Origin: Pseudanabaena mucicola str. Chao 1806
GTDB lineage: Bacteria; Cyanobacteriota; Cyanobacteriia; Pseudanabaenales; Pseudanabaenaceae
Assembly (NCBI RefSeq): GCF_030323025.1
Contig: NZ_CP097329.1
Coordinates: 3,706,001-3,770,000, forward strand
DNA: 64,000 nucleotides
Direction: 5' to 3'
The position numbers were made by a program, and so were the translations under genes. The notes beneath the pieces are model-generated. The model made no database searches, was not told the origin of the DNA, and saw only the letters and a list, made by a program, of their open reading frames with translations. Of this stretch, positions 4,797 to 19,738 are shown one piece after another (the stretch's first letter is position 1; every line of letters begins with the position of its first letter).

Positions 4797-5972
4797 ATGT
4801 TAGTACTTGAAGCAAAACTAAAAGGCAAAACAGGACAGTACAACCTCATAGATGAGGCGATTCGTACTGCTCTGTTTGTGCGTAATAAGGCTTTAAGGCT
4901 ATGGATGGATGTAAAGGATAGCGACAAGTACGATCTCAATAAGTATTGTGCTGTGCTTGCCAAAGAGTTTGAGTTTGCGAAAAAGCTAAATGCTCAAGCC
5001 AGACAAGCCAGTGCTGAGAAAGCATGGTCAGCAATTAATCGGTTCTTTGAAAATTGCAAGAAGAAAGTATCAGGCAAGAAAGGTTTTCCCAGATTCAAGA
5101 AGCGTGGTCATTCTGTGGAATACAAAACTTCAGGATGGAAGCTTAGTGAAGATCGGAAATATCTAACTTTGACTGATGGCTTTAAGATTGGCAGACTCAA
5201 AATAATCGGTTCACGTGACCTTAATTTCTACCAGATAGAGCAGATAAAACGAATCAGACTGGTAAGACGGGCTGATGGTTACTATGCTCAGTTCTGTGTT
5301 GATGTGGATCGGCGTGAAGAAATAGAGCCGACTCAAACCACAATCGGATTGGATGTTGGACTTAATCACTTCTACACTGACTCAAAAGGCGAAGTAGTTG
5401 AGAATCCTAGATATCTTAGAAAGTCAGAGCGTCAACTCAAAAAATTGCAGCGCAAGGTTTCTAAGCGTAAAGAGGGATCTGCTAATCGCCGTAAAGCAAT
5501 TAAACGATTAGCCAAAAAGCATTTGCAAGTAAGTAGGCAGCGTAAAGACTTTGCGGTAAAGACTGCAAGGTGCGTAGTGAGGTCTAACGACCTGATTGCC
5601 TATGAAGATTTGCAAATTCGCAACATGGTTAAAAACCACAAATTAGCTAAGTCGATCAGTGATGCAAGCTGGTCAATGTTTTGCCAATGGGTTGAATATT
5701 TTGGCAAGGTGTTTGGCAAGGTCACAGTTGCAGTACCGCCCCAATATACAAGCCAAAACTGCTCAAACTGCGGTAAGCAAGTTGTCAAAACATTGAGTCA
5801 GCGTACTCATCACTGTGGGCATTGTGGCACTGTATTAGACCGTGACCACAATGCGGCTCTGAATATTTTAGCTATTGGTCTAAATAGGGTAGGGCATACC
5901 CAAATTCACGCCTGTGGAGAGTTCGACCTCTACCAATTAGATGCAAGTCTATCTGGCAAGTTGTCTCGCTGA
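4797..5972 (+). CDS. tnpB: TnpB, RNA-guided nuclease of an IS200/IS605-type element
   Basis: This 391-residue protein has an N-terminal OrfB helix-turn-helix region, a RuvC-like nuclease core and a zinc ribbon. The catalytic acidic triad is intact: D186 (IGLDVGLNHF), E270 (AYEDLQIRN) and D350 (LDRDHNAA). The zinc cysteines C322, C325, C340 and C343 are all present. Characterised TnpB proteins are guided by an RNA made from the element's right end to cut DNA next to a transposon-specific motif. This copy looks full-length and active. The typical start is a few residues longer or shorter in homologues; ATG 4797 is the first methionine after the left-end hairpin. There is no partner transposase, so mobility would need one in trans. 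Confidence 0.92.
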   Translation: MLVLEAKLKGKTGQYNLIDEAIRTALFVRNKALRLWMDVKDSDKYDLNKYCAVLAKEFEFAKKLNAQARQASAEKAWSAINRFFENCKKKVSGKKGFPRFKKRGHSVEYKTSGWKLSEDRKYLTLTDGFKIGRLKIIGSRDLNFYQIEQIKRIRLVRRADGYYAQFCVDVDRREEIEPTQTTIGLDVGLNHFYTDSKGEVVENPRYLRKSERQLKKLQRKVSKRKEGSANRRKAIKRLAKKHLQVSRQRKDFAVKTARCVVRSNDLIAYEDLQIRNMVKNHKLAKSISDASWSMFCQWVEYFGKVFGKVTVAVPPQYTSQNCSNCGKQVVKTLSQRTHHCGHCGTVLDRDHNAALNILAIGLNRVGHTQIHACGEFDLYQLDASLSGKLSR

Positions 5973-6141: not shown

Positions 6142-8421
6142 ATGTATCGATTTCAGATAAAAGCTCCCACCCAAGATGGGGAAATGATTGGTATAGTTGG
6201 CGCGATTCCTCAACTGGGATCGTGGGATGTGAAAAAATATCTGCCCCTAAATACATCTAGCGATCGCTATCCGATTTGGTCTATAGATATTGCGATCGAG
6301 CCTTTAATATTAACAAATCCGCAAGAACACATTGAATATAAAATTGAATATAAATATGTGCGAATTACTGCCAATGGGCAAGTACAGTGGGAGTCAGATC
6401 TTGGTGAAAATCGCTGGGTTCCCATTGAGCCAGAACATCTCGATGCAACCACCTCTACAATCATTATTGATGACGGAGCATTTGGCTACATTCAACCTTT
6501 TCCTTATGGATATTTAGAACATCCGATCGCTTCCAGTCCTAGCCTCACCAGTTCGCTTAGTGGAATCAAAGTACTAGTTTTGGGCAGTTCCGTTGCTATG
6601 GGCTGTAGTGCTTGGCTCCTCAAGGGATGGGCAAGTAAATTAGGACAAGCCTTGGAAGAAAAATATGGACATCAATTGGTTAATCACTCGGAATTGGGGG
6701 CAACAGTAACTAGTACAATTAAGCGTTTTGCAGCAGCAGTTGTACCCGAAAAGCCAGATATTGTGGTTATCTCTCTATCATTGGGCAATGAAGGTTTAGC
6801 CTATAGCCGTCCCCATGATCGACGTGCTGTACAACGTCGTTTTGAAAGTGGCTTACTGCAACTGGTGAAAATGGTGCGAGATTTAGGAGCTATTCCGATT
6901 ATTGGTGGCTTATACCCAAATGGTGACTATAACCCTGAACATAACTGGCTATTGCGTGACACGCACCATCGAATGCTAGGTTGGGGTGTTCCTATGCTCG
7001 ATTGGTTAGACAGTTTAGACAATGGCTATGGAGGATGGAAGCCACATCTATCGCTAGATGTGGCACATCCTAATACGGCGGGACATCAAGTGATGTTTGA
7101 GGCGATTAATCTGGAACTGTTTAACATTAGGAAAGAAGATCGCCTAAAAGAACAAAAATCTCTTGAGCATAGCCCCAACCTAGAAGAGATTTCTATTTAT
7201 GAAGATAAGTATGGTTTTAAAGTATTCGCCTGTCCTGAAGCCCAAACCTTACGCATCATTAACAAGTCTGAACATTCATACAATATCACTCCCACTTGGC
7301 TCGAATTGCAAGCAGCTTTGAAACGCAAAGCCGAACTGGGCTCTGGAACTTATATTTCCAAAAATGACGAGTTAGGAACTCTACCACTGTTGACCGTTGG
7401 TGTGCAAGGCTCGATTGAGAATACAGTCACAATACCTACTGGATCAGACTTACATTATTGCTCAGCATTGAAATTTTTTGCGCCCCAAAATTCTGAAATC
7501 ATCTACTACGATGGGTATTTAGGAATTCTGAAGGAAGGCGATCGCACGATGCGGATCATCAACGAATCTAACGAAGAATATAATATTCATCCCATGTGGA
7601 AAGAGATTCGTACAGCCCTTGCGGAAATGCCTGCGGCGGTATATCACGATCCTGTCAATCCTGATGCGCCATTTCGGACAATGATTATTGGCGATCGCGG
7701 TTTAGAGAGCCGAGTCAAAGCTCACGCCAAGTCCACGATGCTGCTCAAATACAAGTGCAAATTATCTGAGCTAAAGCGAATTGCGATTTTGCCCCTAGGC
7801 GATCGCTGTGCCGCCCGAATGCTACTCTACAAAATGGAATATGATGGGCCAGCGTTTCCCTTTGACTTAGCACGTTCTACGAATCTTGGCGATGTGACTG
7901 ACTTGGTGATTAATGACTTTCAGGATATGTGGAATCCTGCCTATCTCCATTACAATCCTACTGATCGCCGCATCTATCATTCTAAATGGTCTGGGCTATC
8001 CTTTGGTCATGAAGTCGAAGATTCAGATGATCCAGTGAATAATATGCGACCTATTCACGAACGGATGCGCGTTCGCTACTCAGCGCGTGCTAAGAGATTT
8101 CTATATACCCTCAAACATAGTGATGAGATCCTCTTCATACGCACTGGTGTAACCAATCGTGACTATGTTGTCGATTTAATGGAAAAGCTCAAAATCAAAT
8201 GTGCCGACAAGCCATTCCGAGTTTTGTTGATTTCCAAGCAAACATCCGATGAATTTGCGGGTATTCCCAATTTAATCCATTACGATTTGCATTTCAGTCC
8301 TGACTGGATGTACGACAGTCTCGACTACTGGATGGAATGCACCAGCAAAATGAAAGAGATTTTAGAAATATTAGGTATATCTAGCCAAAACCTCTTTTGG
8401 TGTCCTCCTAATCCCAACTAA
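6142..8421 (+). CDS. Four-part fusion: CBM20 starch-binding domain, SGNH hydrolase, duplicated unknown module, DUF1796
   Basis: This 759-residue protein has no signal peptide. Residues 1-105 resemble a CBM20 starch/glycogen-binding domain (VGAIPQLGSWDVKKYLPL, then EYKYV and WESDLGENR). Residues 140-325 look like an SGNH/GDSL esterase: nucleophile S150 in VLGSSVAMG, the block SLGNEG, and D306-x-x-H309 in DVAHPNTAGH. Residues about 352-545 hold two copies of one module (RIINKSEHSYNITPTW and RIINESNEEYNIHPMW). Residues about 545-755 match DUF1796, a putative papain-like peptidase family, with LGDRC (C556), PFDLA and H623. The order is seen in the sequence; the activities are inferred. It could act on or at glycogen. 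It stands alone behind the tnpB element. Confidence 0.75.
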   Translation: MYRFQIKAPTQDGEMIGIVGAIPQLGSWDVKKYLPLNTSSDRYPIWSIDIAIEPLILTNPQEHIEYKIEYKYVRITANGQVQWESDLGENRWVPIEPEHLDATTSTIIIDDGAFGYIQPFPYGYLEHPIASSPSLTSSLSGIKVLVLGSSVAMGCSAWLLKGWASKLGQALEEKYGHQLVNHSELGATVTSTIKRFAAAVVPEKPDIVVISLSLGNEGLAYSRPHDRRAVQRRFESGLLQLVKMVRDLGAIPIIGGLYPNGDYNPEHNWLLRDTHHRMLGWGVPMLDWLDSLDNGYGGWKPHLSLDVAHPNTAGHQVMFEAINLELFNIRKEDRLKEQKSLEHSPNLEEISIYEDKYGFKVFACPEAQTLRIINKSEHSYNITPTWLELQAALKRKAELGSGTYISKNDELGTLPLLTVGVQGSIENTVTIPTGSDLHYCSALKFFAPQNSEIIYYDGYLGILKEGDRTMRIINESNEEYNIHPMWKEIRTALAEMPAAVYHDPVNPDAPFRTMIIGDRGLESRVKAHAKSTMLLKYKCKLSELKRIAILPLGDRCAARMLLYKMEYDGPAFPFDLARSTNLGDVTDLVINDFQDMWNPAYLHYNPTDRRIYHSKWSGLSFGHEVEDSDDPVNNMRPIHERMRVRYSARAKRFLYTLKHSDEILFIRTGVTNRDYVVDLMEKLKIKCADKPFRVLLISKQTSDEFAGIPNLIHYDLHFSPDWMYDSLDYWMECTSKMKEILEILGISSQNLFWCPPNPN

Positions 8422-8671: not shown

Positions 8672-8944
8672 GTGGAAATGGTTGAGTTTGGATTTGGACA
8701 AATGTTAGTTGAACATCCCAACCATAAAGAATTGACTGCCGAAGAGTTACAAAGTTTACAAAAACTTCATGCTGTTATTGATCGCGCGATCGCTGATGGC
8801 AGAATTTCTAAATACGAGATGGAGCAAATTGACCGCTCTATTTATGCTGATGGAAAAGTTCTTGTAGAAGAAATCACGATGGTACGGCAACTTGTGAAAG
8901 ATAAAATCAATGATGGATCTCTAGTTTACGATTGGAACAACTAG
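8672..8944 (+). CDS. Small conserved-looking hypothetical protein (about 90 aa)
   Basis: I do not recognise the family with confidence. The protein is acidic and helical. Its second half (AIADGRISKYEMEQIDRSIY, then ADGKVLVEEITMVRQLV) has a paired ADG rhythm reminiscent of TerB/EF-hand-like helical domains, and it ends DGSLVYDWNN. The start is either GTG 8672 or ATG 8678; neither has a strong ribosome-binding site, though GGA at 8674-8676 lies close to the second. It is followed 45 bases later by trhO on the same strand. Codon use matches the neighbours and it contains a HIP1-like GCGCGATCGC, which supports a real gene. Confidence 0.65.
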   Translation: MEMVEFGFGQMLVEHPNHKELTAEELQSLQKLHAVIDRAIADGRISKYEMEQIDRSIYADGKVLVEEITMVRQLVKDKINDGSLVYDWNN

Positions 8945-18149: not shown

Positions 18150-19738
18150 GTAACTACTCAGGCTAAAGATTTAATTCAAGCTAAAGATTTAATAATATTT
18201 TCCAAGAAGTAATCAAGGAAGAAGTAGGATTTGAAGAATAAAGCCAGAGCGAATCGTAATCGAGATGAAAGAGAGTCCACCAAAGCAAAGAATCAGTAGA
18301 GAAGAGATCCGAGGGATCTATCAACAAGGCGAAGAAGCTGTTATTGCTTTGGTGGAAGGACTATTGCACAAGATAGAGCAACTAGAAGAGCGATTAGAAG
18401 TATTAGAAAATCAGGCAAAGAAAGATAGTCAAAACAGTAGCAAACCACCATCAAGTGACGGATTTGGAAAGCGAACAAAAAGCTTGCGAGGAAAAAGTGA
18501 ACGGCAAAGCGGAGGACAAATTGGGCATGAAGGCAACACCTTAGAGTGGCGAGAAGAAATCGATGAAACCATCGTGCATCGGGTAGACCAGTGCGAAAGT
18601 TGCGGAGCCTCGTTAGTAGGCACAGAGATATTAAATTGGGACTTGAGACAAGTGCATGATTTACCACCAATAGTCCTAAAAGTAACAGAACATCAAGCCG
18701 AAGTAAAATGCTGTAACCACTGCGGATTATTAAATCGCGGAAAATTTCCAGCCGATGTGAGCAACGTAGTGCAGTATGGATCAGGACTAAAGGGATTAAT
18801 AGTCTATCTGATGGAGGGACAATTACTGCCAACAGAGAGGGTGCGGGAACTAATCAGCGAAATATTTGACTGCAAACTATCGGAAGGGACAATCTACAAC
18901 GCAAGAGAATATTGCTATGGGCAATTAGAAACCGTAGAACAGTATCTAAAAGAGGGGATACAAGCTGCCGAAGTAGGACATTTTGACGAAACAGGGATGC
19001 GGGTCAAAGGAAAACTGATGTGGTTGCATGTGGCAAGTACATCAGGGTTAACCTACTACTTTATGCATACCAAACGGGGTCAAATAGCTATGGATGCGAT
19101 GGATATTCTGCCCAACTTTGACGGTATCAGTGTCCATGATGGTTTATCTAGTTATGCCCAATATGATTGTAAACATGCTTTGTGCAATGCACATCATTTA
19201 CGGGAATTGACGTTTATCGTTGAACGTTACCAACAGCCATGGGCAGAGTTGATGCTCTCGTTATTGGTTGAAATCAAAGACCAGATAGGAGTTGCCAAAA
19301 CTGATGGACTCAGCGCTTTACCCTCAGAAAAATCAGCAGATTTTGAGCGACGTTATCAGGAACTAATTGACCAAGGACTTAAAGCTAATCCGCCGCCTCC
19401 CATAGATCCAGATATCCCACCAAGGAAAGGTCGTCTTAAACAAAGTCCAGCCAAGAACTTACTCGACCGTCTTCAAAAAAATCAATCGGCTGTTTTAGCT
19501 TTTATGTATGATTTTCGTGTTCCTTTTGATAACAATCAGGCGGAACGTGATTTACGTATGATGAAACTCAAACAGAAAGTATCTGGCACTTTTCGCTCTC
19601 TTGAGGGCGCTCAAATGTTCTGTCGCATTCGTGGCTATATTTCGACTCTCAGAAAGCAAGGTGTTAATGTTCTGGAGTCTCTCAAACAAGTGTTTCTTGG
19701 AAACCATTTCTTCCCAAATCTCCAGCCTGAGTAGTTAC
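18150..19738 (+). mobile_element. IS66-family insertion sequence, single transposase gene
   Basis: The element is 1,589 bp. It has 15-bp perfect terminal inverted repeats GTAACTACTCAGGCT (18150-18164) and AGCCTGAGTAGTTAC (19724-19738), and it is flanked by an exact 8-bp duplication TTTATTTC. It carries one transposase (tnpC type) and neither tnpA nor tnpB accessory gene, like the ISBst12 subgroup. The perfect ends, intact transposase and perfect duplication indicate a recent and probably still active insertion. Confidence 0.95.
18265..19734 (+). CDS. tnpC: IS66-family transposase (TnpC type)
   Basis: DDE transposase of 489 residues. The N-terminal leucine-rich coiled coil (LIEQLEERLEVLENQ-like, about residues 30-52) is followed by a basic, Ser-rich segment (SSKPPSSDGFGKRTKSLRGK) and a zinc-finger region with CESCG and CNHCG. 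The catalytic domain has D241 (HFDETGMRV), D292 (SVHDGLSSY) and E427 (NNQAERDLRMMK), with the CNAHHLREL block characteristic of IS66. The stop codon lies inside the right terminal repeat. The gene is intact and reads opposite to the gene it disrupts. Confidence 0.95.
   Translation: MKESPPKQRISREEIRGIYQQGEEAVIALVEGLLHKIEQLEERLEVLENQAKKDSQNSSKPPSSDGFGKRTKSLRGKSERQSGGQIGHEGNTLEWREEIDETIVHRVDQCESCGASLVGTEILNWDLRQVHDLPPIVLKVTEHQAEVKCCNHCGLLNRGKFPADVSNVVQYGSGLKGLIVYLMEGQLLPTERVRELISEIFDCKLSEGTIYNAREYCYGQLETVEQYLKEGIQAAEVGHFDETGMRVKGKLMWLHVASTSGLTYYFMHTKRGQIAMDAMDILPNFDGISVHDGLSSYAQYDCKHALCNAHHLRELTFIVERYQQPWAELMLSLLVEIKDQIGVAKTDGLSALPSEKSADFERRYQELIDQGLKANPPPPIDPDIPPRKGRLKQSPAKNLLDRLQKNQSAVLAFMYDFRVPFDNNQAERDLRMMKLKQKVSGTFRSLEGAQMFCRIRGYISTLRKQGVNVLESLKQVFLGNHFFPNLQPE

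Follow-up and report, generated by a model that had tools for sequence, protein, structure and literature searches.

In this work, we analysed a single gene of the cyanobacterium Pseudanabaena mucicola str. Chao 1806, located on the plus strand at positions 6142-8421 of the window, this being the whole stretch of 64,000 nucleotides under analysis (contig NZ_CP097329.1, positions 3,706,001 to 3,770,000; assembly GCF_030323025.1). The gene encodes a 759-residue protein that joins a CBM20 domain, an SGNH hydrolase domain, a duplicated module and a DUF1796 domain, and among 291 sampled genomes of the class, DNA coding for the motif of a ligase resembling malonyl-coenzyme A (malonyl-CoA) synthetases was detected exclusively in genomes holding this gene. 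We propose, with a probability of about 0.35, that the protein is an acyl esterase docked on glycogen, that the freed acid is re-activated by the ligase, and that DUF1796 would serve as a second enzyme on the same glucan.

Domain architecture and conservation

The open reading frame (ORF) starts with an ATG at 6142 and its stop codon ends at 8421, with no in-frame ATG, GTG or TTG found upstream of the former. The host genome (4.53 Mb, one contig) contains one place matching CBM20 and one matching DUF1796, both within this gene, whose features are the following:

6142..8421, + strand: whole gene, 759 aa (Pfam; near-full-length relatives in 49 loci)
6148..6432, + strand: CBM20 starch/glycogen-binding domain, residues 3-97 (PF00686, 4e-19; W28 and W83 invariant)
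6562..7125, + strand: SGNH hydrolase domain, residues 141-328 (PF13472, 2e-13; VIA Z 22.6 to PbeAcXE)
6589..6591, + strand: Ser150, presumed SGNH nucleophile (invariant 36/36)
7057..7068, + strand: Asp306-xx-His309, remainder of the presumed SGNH triad (both invariant 36/36)
7174..7485, + strand: module copy 1, residues 345-448, a GH13 domain-C-like beta domain (VIA Z 9.1 to a cyclodextrin glucanotransferase, CGTase)
7498..7767, + strand: module copy 2, residues 453-542 (hhalign to copy 1: 98.5%, 68 columns)
7774..8412, + strand: DUF1796 and C-terminal extension, residues 545-757 (PF08795 over 550-698)
7807..7809, + strand: Cys556, presumed DUF1796 nucleophile (invariant 36/36)
7978..8010, + strand: stretch with His613 and His623, candidate DUF1796 catalytic histidines (both invariant 36/36)

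One scan over 84,980 species genomes, sensitive to close relatives only, returned 49 loci with relatives sharing 49-99% identity along almost their entire length, all under cyanobacterial titles; a 99% match belongs to a Pseudanabaena sp. metagenome-assembled genome. As such a scan finds close relatives only, a restriction of the architecture to cyanobacteria is not proven. For conservation analysis, the window and 35 of the 49 loci were aligned (36 rows), the other 14 being omitted mostly as near-copies. The three profiles match in all 36 rows and exceed their Pfam gathering scores in the window's protein: CBM_20 (PF00686, 4e-19, residues 3-97) with 68.7 bits against 23.3, Lipase_GDSL_2 (PF13472, 2e-13, residues 146-317) with 51.7 against 32.9, and DUF1796 (PF08795, 4.8e-8, residues 550-698) with 33.4 against 23; no glycoside hydrolase domain was found in the protein by Pfam. 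Invariant in every row are S149, S150, G186, N216, D306, H309, C556, H613, H623, W28 and W83. Invariant positions amount to 47/185 in SGNH and 46/156 in DUF1796, the presumed catalytic domains, against 18/112 in CBM20, 7/101 in module 1 and 18/85 in module 2, and the former two are thus the most constrained.

A hydrophobic N-terminal stretch is absent: within residues 1-43, no 19-residue Kyte-Doolittle mean exceeds 0.56; the maximum of the whole protein (1.7) lies at residue 142, inside the SGNH domain, and a mean above 1.6 occurs somewhere in 14 of the 36 aligned proteins. These results bear out a preliminary description made from the window's letters, which had assigned the three domains, numbered Ser150, Asp306, His309, Cys556 and His623 correctly, noted the lack of a signal peptide, and reported a twice-repeated module. 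The last point is secured by hhalign, in which copies 1 and 2 align with 98.5% probability over 68 columns at 32% identity, while four control domain pairs reach 0.3 to 0.8%; the copies are homologous, a true duplication. A similar relationship between SGNH and DUF1796 was considered and ruled out (hhalign 0.3%).

Within the sampled class, DUF1796 exceeds its cut-off in 58/291 genomes, at one place each, and all 58 matches fall inside a CBM20-SGNH-DUF1796 protein (coordinates compared by eye). These 58, together with a genome carrying a split copy (G278), are hereafter the 59 holders; 27 of the 86 genomes matching the protein were dropped from this count as SGNH-only or CBM20-only, nearly all of them weak (E above 1e-7). 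Of 58 related genomes, 37 gave a match, two of these (G042 and G054) only weakly and in the SGNH part. At one of the 49 loci (L070, 7905-10078), two neighbouring ORFs, one for CBM20-SGNH and one for module 2-DUF1796, take the place of the single gene, and module 1 is missing; this arrangement hints at a protein of two functional halves whose first module can be dispensed with. Separately, one dropped genome (G282, contig 37, 32898-33185) has a 120-residue frame that matches the CBM20 part at 44% identity (1.8e-19), without the remainder of the protein.

The author of the preliminary description knew of no described protein with this domain order. The order turned out to be that of a conserved cyanobacterial family, 49 loci strong, rather than a one-off; a published description of the order, or of the ligase link, was not found among the papers listed, judged by title and abstract start, with most subscription journals outside the scope, and within the same scope no mention of DUF1796 was found. 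The constituent families are known; within the range of these searches, what is new is how they are combined and that the gene is linked to a ligase.

Predicted folds of the CBM20, SGNH and module parts

The nearest PDB relative of the CBM20 part by sequence is a glucoamylase starch-binding domain (3.8e-7). W28 and W83, which we take to be the aromatic residues of the sugar site, align with Trp of glucoamylase, and the domain is predicted to bind alpha-glucan. Module copy 1 also points to alpha-glucan enzymes: a model of residues 345-759 (predicted local distance difference test, pLDDT, 90.9; predicted template modelling score, pTM, 0.85) matches over its residues 1-104 the residues 405-495 of a CGTase chain (VIA Z 9.1, 88 residues, root-mean-square deviation [rmsd] 2.9), a range that presumably corresponds to GH13 domain C, and nearly all of the 50 VIA matches listed are CGTases or alpha-amylases, with one beta-arabinopyranosidase. 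The resemblance of module 1 to domain C of GH13 enzymes is suggestive, and the module, earlier called one without known identity, has thereby gained a possible structural relationship; it still matches no Pfam family. The protein would thus share with amylolytic enzymes such as glucoamylase and CGTase a CBM20 and a domain-C-like module (by predicted fold), whereas here the CBM20 is N-terminal, a signal peptide is absent, and SGNH and DUF1796 stand in the catalytic place.

The SGNH domain presents the blocks of its family, which comprise Ser, Gly, Asn and Asp-xx-His: S150, G186, N216, D306 and H309 are invariant in 36/36, with block I reading GSS and not GDS. The top VIA match of residues 124-329 is the carbohydrate esterase PbeAcXE (7tog; Z 22.6, 194 residues, rmsd 2.4), followed by a polyvinyl alcohol esterase (Z 20.6). 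In the Foldseek ranking, designed scaffolds, putative acylhydrolases and the acetylxylan esterase Axe2 come first. By VIA Z, the modelled domain is structurally closest to carbohydrate esterases, and such an activity is predicted; PbeAcXE and, lower on the list, Axe2 (3w7v) and a CE3 enzyme (2vpt) share with it the SGNH fold and the Ser-Asp-His residues, and differ in being titled as esterases of xylan or other carbohydrates. We know of no SGNH carbohydrate esterase combined with CBM20 and DUF1796. An intracellular glucose polymer acylated by an SGNH-type enzyme, OctT, exists in mycobacteria (methylglucose lipopolysaccharide); to our knowledge this system includes neither a CBM20 or DUF1796 domain nor a malonyl-CoA synthetase linked to it.

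By sequence, the best PDB match of the SGNH part is the thioesterase TesA (2.1e-6), also a structural match (Z 19.2). The protein could accordingly be pictured as a glycogen-sensing acyl-CoA thioesterase that hydrolyses malonyl-CoA to malonate, from which the ligase would rebuild it, coupling glycogen to fatty-acid synthesis; the co-occurrence with the ligase described below would suit such a cycle. Nevertheless, carbohydrate esterases fit the structure better (Z 22.6), and the DUF1796 and GH13-like modules would be left unexplained, which makes this proposal improbable.

A linked ligase resembling malonyl-CoA synthetases

Neighbouring genes were clustered across 50 loci, namely the 49 loci and the window, 17 of them in the Pseudanabaena group and 33 outside. 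In the latter, the most frequent neighbour family is an AMP-binding ligase of ~496 residues (type A), found in 20/33 loci, always 3' of the gene and starting ~0.04 to 3.7 kb past its end, 11 times on the plus and 9 times on the minus strand and with differing genes in between; three of the 33 (L059, L063 and L070) have flanks too short to show it. A second ligase, type B, lies beside the gene in one Pseudanabaena (L068), and a ligase is also adjacent in two further genomes, on the same strand (G144) or head to head (G253). In the window's genome the ligase lies ~477 kb from the gene, outside the window, and for this reason the partner was invisible to the preliminary description.

A third gene for this two-gene unit was sought and rejected: apart from close relatives, the 16 ligase neighbourhoods analysed contained only common superfamilies (two-component proteins in 5 of them, ABC transporters in 3 and a dehydrogenase family in 3, named from their sequences). 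Around the CBM20-SGNH-DUF1796 gene, response regulators occur in 18/50 loci at scattered positions; in addition to protein kinases and ABC ATPases there are two small families, each from 4 related loci.

The nearest solved structures of both ligase types are malonyl-CoA synthetases, with 347 and 345 bits for type B (next enzyme, 270) and 257 and 251 bits for type A (next ligase, 227). The best NCBIfam family of the window genome's type B ligase is malonyl-CoA synthase PRK07514 (528 bits; next family, 435). LERYGMTE is present in both types and in the solved malonyl-CoA synthetases 4gxq and 4fuq, with IERYGMTE in 3nyq; the motif Arg presumably has a role in malonate binding. ERYGMTE is present in 23/23 type A and B rows and in 0/27 other ligase rows, the latter being best-scoring picks (25 distinct) from holders and non-holders. 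In a tree, types A and B form separate, strongly supported clades, both of which fall on the same side of a 100/99 branch. The partner ligase looks like a malonate-activating enzyme of the kind of MatB and ACSF3, the latter a resemblance that we assume; it has in common with these synthetases the ERYGMTE motif and its nearest solved relatives, and differs in scoring below the curated cut-off, in that its substrate is a prediction, and in occurring within the sample only along with the CBM20-SGNH-DUF1796 protein.

Queried with type A, 38/291 genomes match at E 1e-80, all of them holders: in 17 the score exceeds 500 bits, and the other 21, which belong to the window's genus, have 281-334 bits. 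A less strict search of 26 selected genomes, of which 21 were holders and 5 non-holders, added one type B copy, in a holder (G001). When the type B ligase of the window's genome served as query, scores above 500 bits were obtained in 22 members of the genus, every one a holder, and further ligases of holders and non-holders alike appear at 200-330 bits. Independently of ligase family, whole genomes were scanned for DNA coding ERYGMTE, and such sites were found in 39/291 genomes, all among the 59 holders and in 0/232 non-holders, while a reversed-pattern control gave 0 sites in the 291 genomes. Second sites in two genomes (G066 and G103) read ESYGMTE, since a degenerate codon admits Ser, and leave the genome counts unaffected. 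Fisher tests give 7e-34 by genome, 2e-12 by genus (14/25 against 0/105) and 3e-17 outside the window's genus (17/36 holders against 0/230), all optimistic values, as related genomes are not independent. Within the window's genus, two non-holders (G018, 99% complete; G016, 76%) are without the motif, and likewise one holder (G010). Among the locus genomes, a set overlapping with the 291, the motif is present in 42/49.

Gene and ligase might merely inhabit the same cyanobacterial lineages with no shared chemistry, given that holders cluster by lineage and that the genomes of some holders lacking the ligase are small (others measure up to 6.4-8.1 Mb). Against this speak the absence of the motif from all 232 non-holders, some with genomes of up to 9.4 Mb, its presence in 17/36 holders outside the window's genus, two ligase clades and an adjacency in several orientations; we regard such a by-product as very improbable, and a functional link between gene and ligase as highly probable.

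The same co-occurrence would be expected if the ligase supplied malonyl-CoA or a related ester with which the DUF1796 Cys or the SGNH site acylates glycogen, the other site editing the product. Cys556 and the two invariant His would suit an acyltransferase, as does the SGNH-fold acyltransferase 8zbc among the structural matches (Z 17.5). On the other hand, 20/59 holders are without such a ligase, and since acetyl-CoA carboxylase makes malonyl-CoA anyway, a dedicated donor ligase would be unneeded. We consider this arrangement rather unlikely, though less so than the thioesterase.

Glycan context of the DUF1796 domain

DUF1796 (PF08795) is named as a family of putative papain-like cysteine peptidases, with which the domain shares the hidden Markov model match and the invariant Cys and His: Cys556, His613 and His623 are invariant in 36/36. 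In the sampled class it occurs only within the present architecture (58/58). Elsewhere, tblastn of the domain matched 19 plasmids, all of Priestia, at ~27% identity (best E 5e-4), and on the two plasmids examined, stand-alone genes for short DUF1796 proteins lie among glycosyltransferase, epimerase and polysaccharide genes. These two Priestia megaterium plasmids, L117 and L118, carry three and two of them, respectively, in a glycosyltransferase/epimerase cluster that is bordered by a gene for an S8 peptidase.

In BFVD, the 345-759 model matches giant-virus proteins named "papain-like cysteine peptidases" (best 6.2e-10) and, at 2.4e-9, a Pyramimonas orientalis virus glycosyltransferase of 615 residues; to judge from their names and lengths, these matches would concern the DUF1796 part. 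They include proteins of the Moumouvirus group, that of Moumouvirus australiensis only at E 0.03. According to one report, the glycan gene clusters of Moumouvirus australiensis and Cotonvirus each include two papain-like proteins, the two of the former virus being "papain-like" by HHpred at >99%, and its authors regard the relation of these proteins to glycosylation as not strict or not direct (PMC10117803); the same genes are described in a second report (PMC9614988). These viral proteins are likely relatives of DUF1796.

The preliminary description had followed the Pfam name in calling the domain a putative peptidase. A papain-like protease processing glycogen-bound proteins, with a separate role for SGNH, would agree with that name, with the names of the giant-virus matches, with the HHpred result (PMC10117803) and with the S8 peptidase gene in both Priestia regions. 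However, DUF1796 genes are located in glycan clusters and one structural match is named a glycosyltransferase, so that a protease appears improbable. No papain enzyme is among the 50 PDB matches listed for the 345-759 model, where module 1 takes the places, and we give this no weight. "Peptidase" is hence doubtful, being a family label only, and the company of these genes on Priestia plasmids and in giant viruses suggests a role of DUF1796 in glycan chemistry.

A phage origin was considered and rejected, with a single weak PHROG esterase match and no tblastn match in phages for the DUF1796 part; an anti-phage defence role was likewise discarded, with no PADLOC match.

Other features of the window

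The following genes lie in the same window:

263-829: a 188-residue protein of the PTP-NADK phosphatase family, with relatives near the CBM20-SGNH-DUF1796 gene in five other Pseudanabaena-group loci
4797-5972: an IS605 OrfB/TnpB-like gene (OrfB_IS605 and Cas12f1-like_TNB domains), immediately upstream of the 6142-8421 gene
8672-8944: a 90-residue ORF between the 6142-8421 gene and a UPF0176/rhodanese gene, with a sub-threshold DUF533 match only
18265-19734: an IS66-family transposase gene, 489 aa

Discussion

The evidence fits a glycogen-bound deacylation enzyme. In the reading that we favour, the cytoplasmic protein would dock on intracellular alpha-glucan (glycogen) through its CBM20, perhaps assisted by the two GH13-domain-C-like modules; the Ser150-Asp306-His309 site would take short acyl groups off the glucan or a glucan-bound sugar; the linked MatB/ACSF3-like ligase would turn the freed acid back into its CoA ester; and the Cys556-His site of DUF1796 would work on the same glucan, acyl transfer or hydrolysis being likelier there than proteolysis. 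An alpha-glucan substrate is proposed because of the CBM20 and the GH13-like module, and de-esterification because the SGNH domain is nearest to carbohydrate esterases. The freed acid is taken as the ligase's substrate because the malonyl-CoA-synthetase-like ligase never occurs without the protein in our sample; as the protein does occur without the ligase in 20/59 holders, and never the reverse, salvage of the acid is preferred over supply of a donor. The acyl groups removed would most likely be malonyl half-esters, and the enzyme perhaps a demalonylase, although malonyl itself is a tentative choice, with a somewhat less than even chance. DUF1796 probably acts on the same substrate as the SGNH site.

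Several observations speak against this reading. The ligase is not required, given that 20/59 holders and 7/49 locus genomes are without the motif; ERYGMTE was chosen after it had been seen in both ligase types, the genomes counted are related to one another, and type B is known here from a single genus. The NCBIfam malonyl-CoA synthase cut-off of 558 bits is reached by neither type B (528) nor type A (382 and 389), so that the ligases are not filed as such; type A exceeds the next solved ligase by a small margin only (257 bits against 227), and one type A ligase scores just as high (383) with a general acyl-CoA synthetase family. CBM20 can bind alpha-glucans other than glycogen, and the best Foldseek E of the 345-759 model is only 1.5e-3. 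In the full-length model (pLDDT 83.4), the relative arrangement of the domains is uncertain (pTM 0.61). Finally, one narrow literature search found no report of malonylated glycans of cyanobacteria.

A bolder extension, which we hold to be speculative and on balance unlikely, is that many cyanobacteria reversibly malonylate their storage alpha-glucan, with the protein as glucan-docked editor and the ligase closing the cycle by converting malonate into malonyl-CoA again; in that case DUF1796 would be a mislabelled domain for glycan acyl transfer or hydrolysis, and its peptidase label would be wrong in bacteria and giant viruses alike.

If the favoured reading is true, cyanobacterial glycogen would carry, or pass through, an acyl modification tied to the malonyl-CoA pool, which feeds fatty-acid synthesis; we know of no report of such a modification on this polymer. 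It would also provide a first testable function for DUF1796, a peptidase-named family seen in the glycan clusters of Priestia plasmids and, through likely relatives, in those of giant viruses, and the link between the two genes makes the question experimentally testable.

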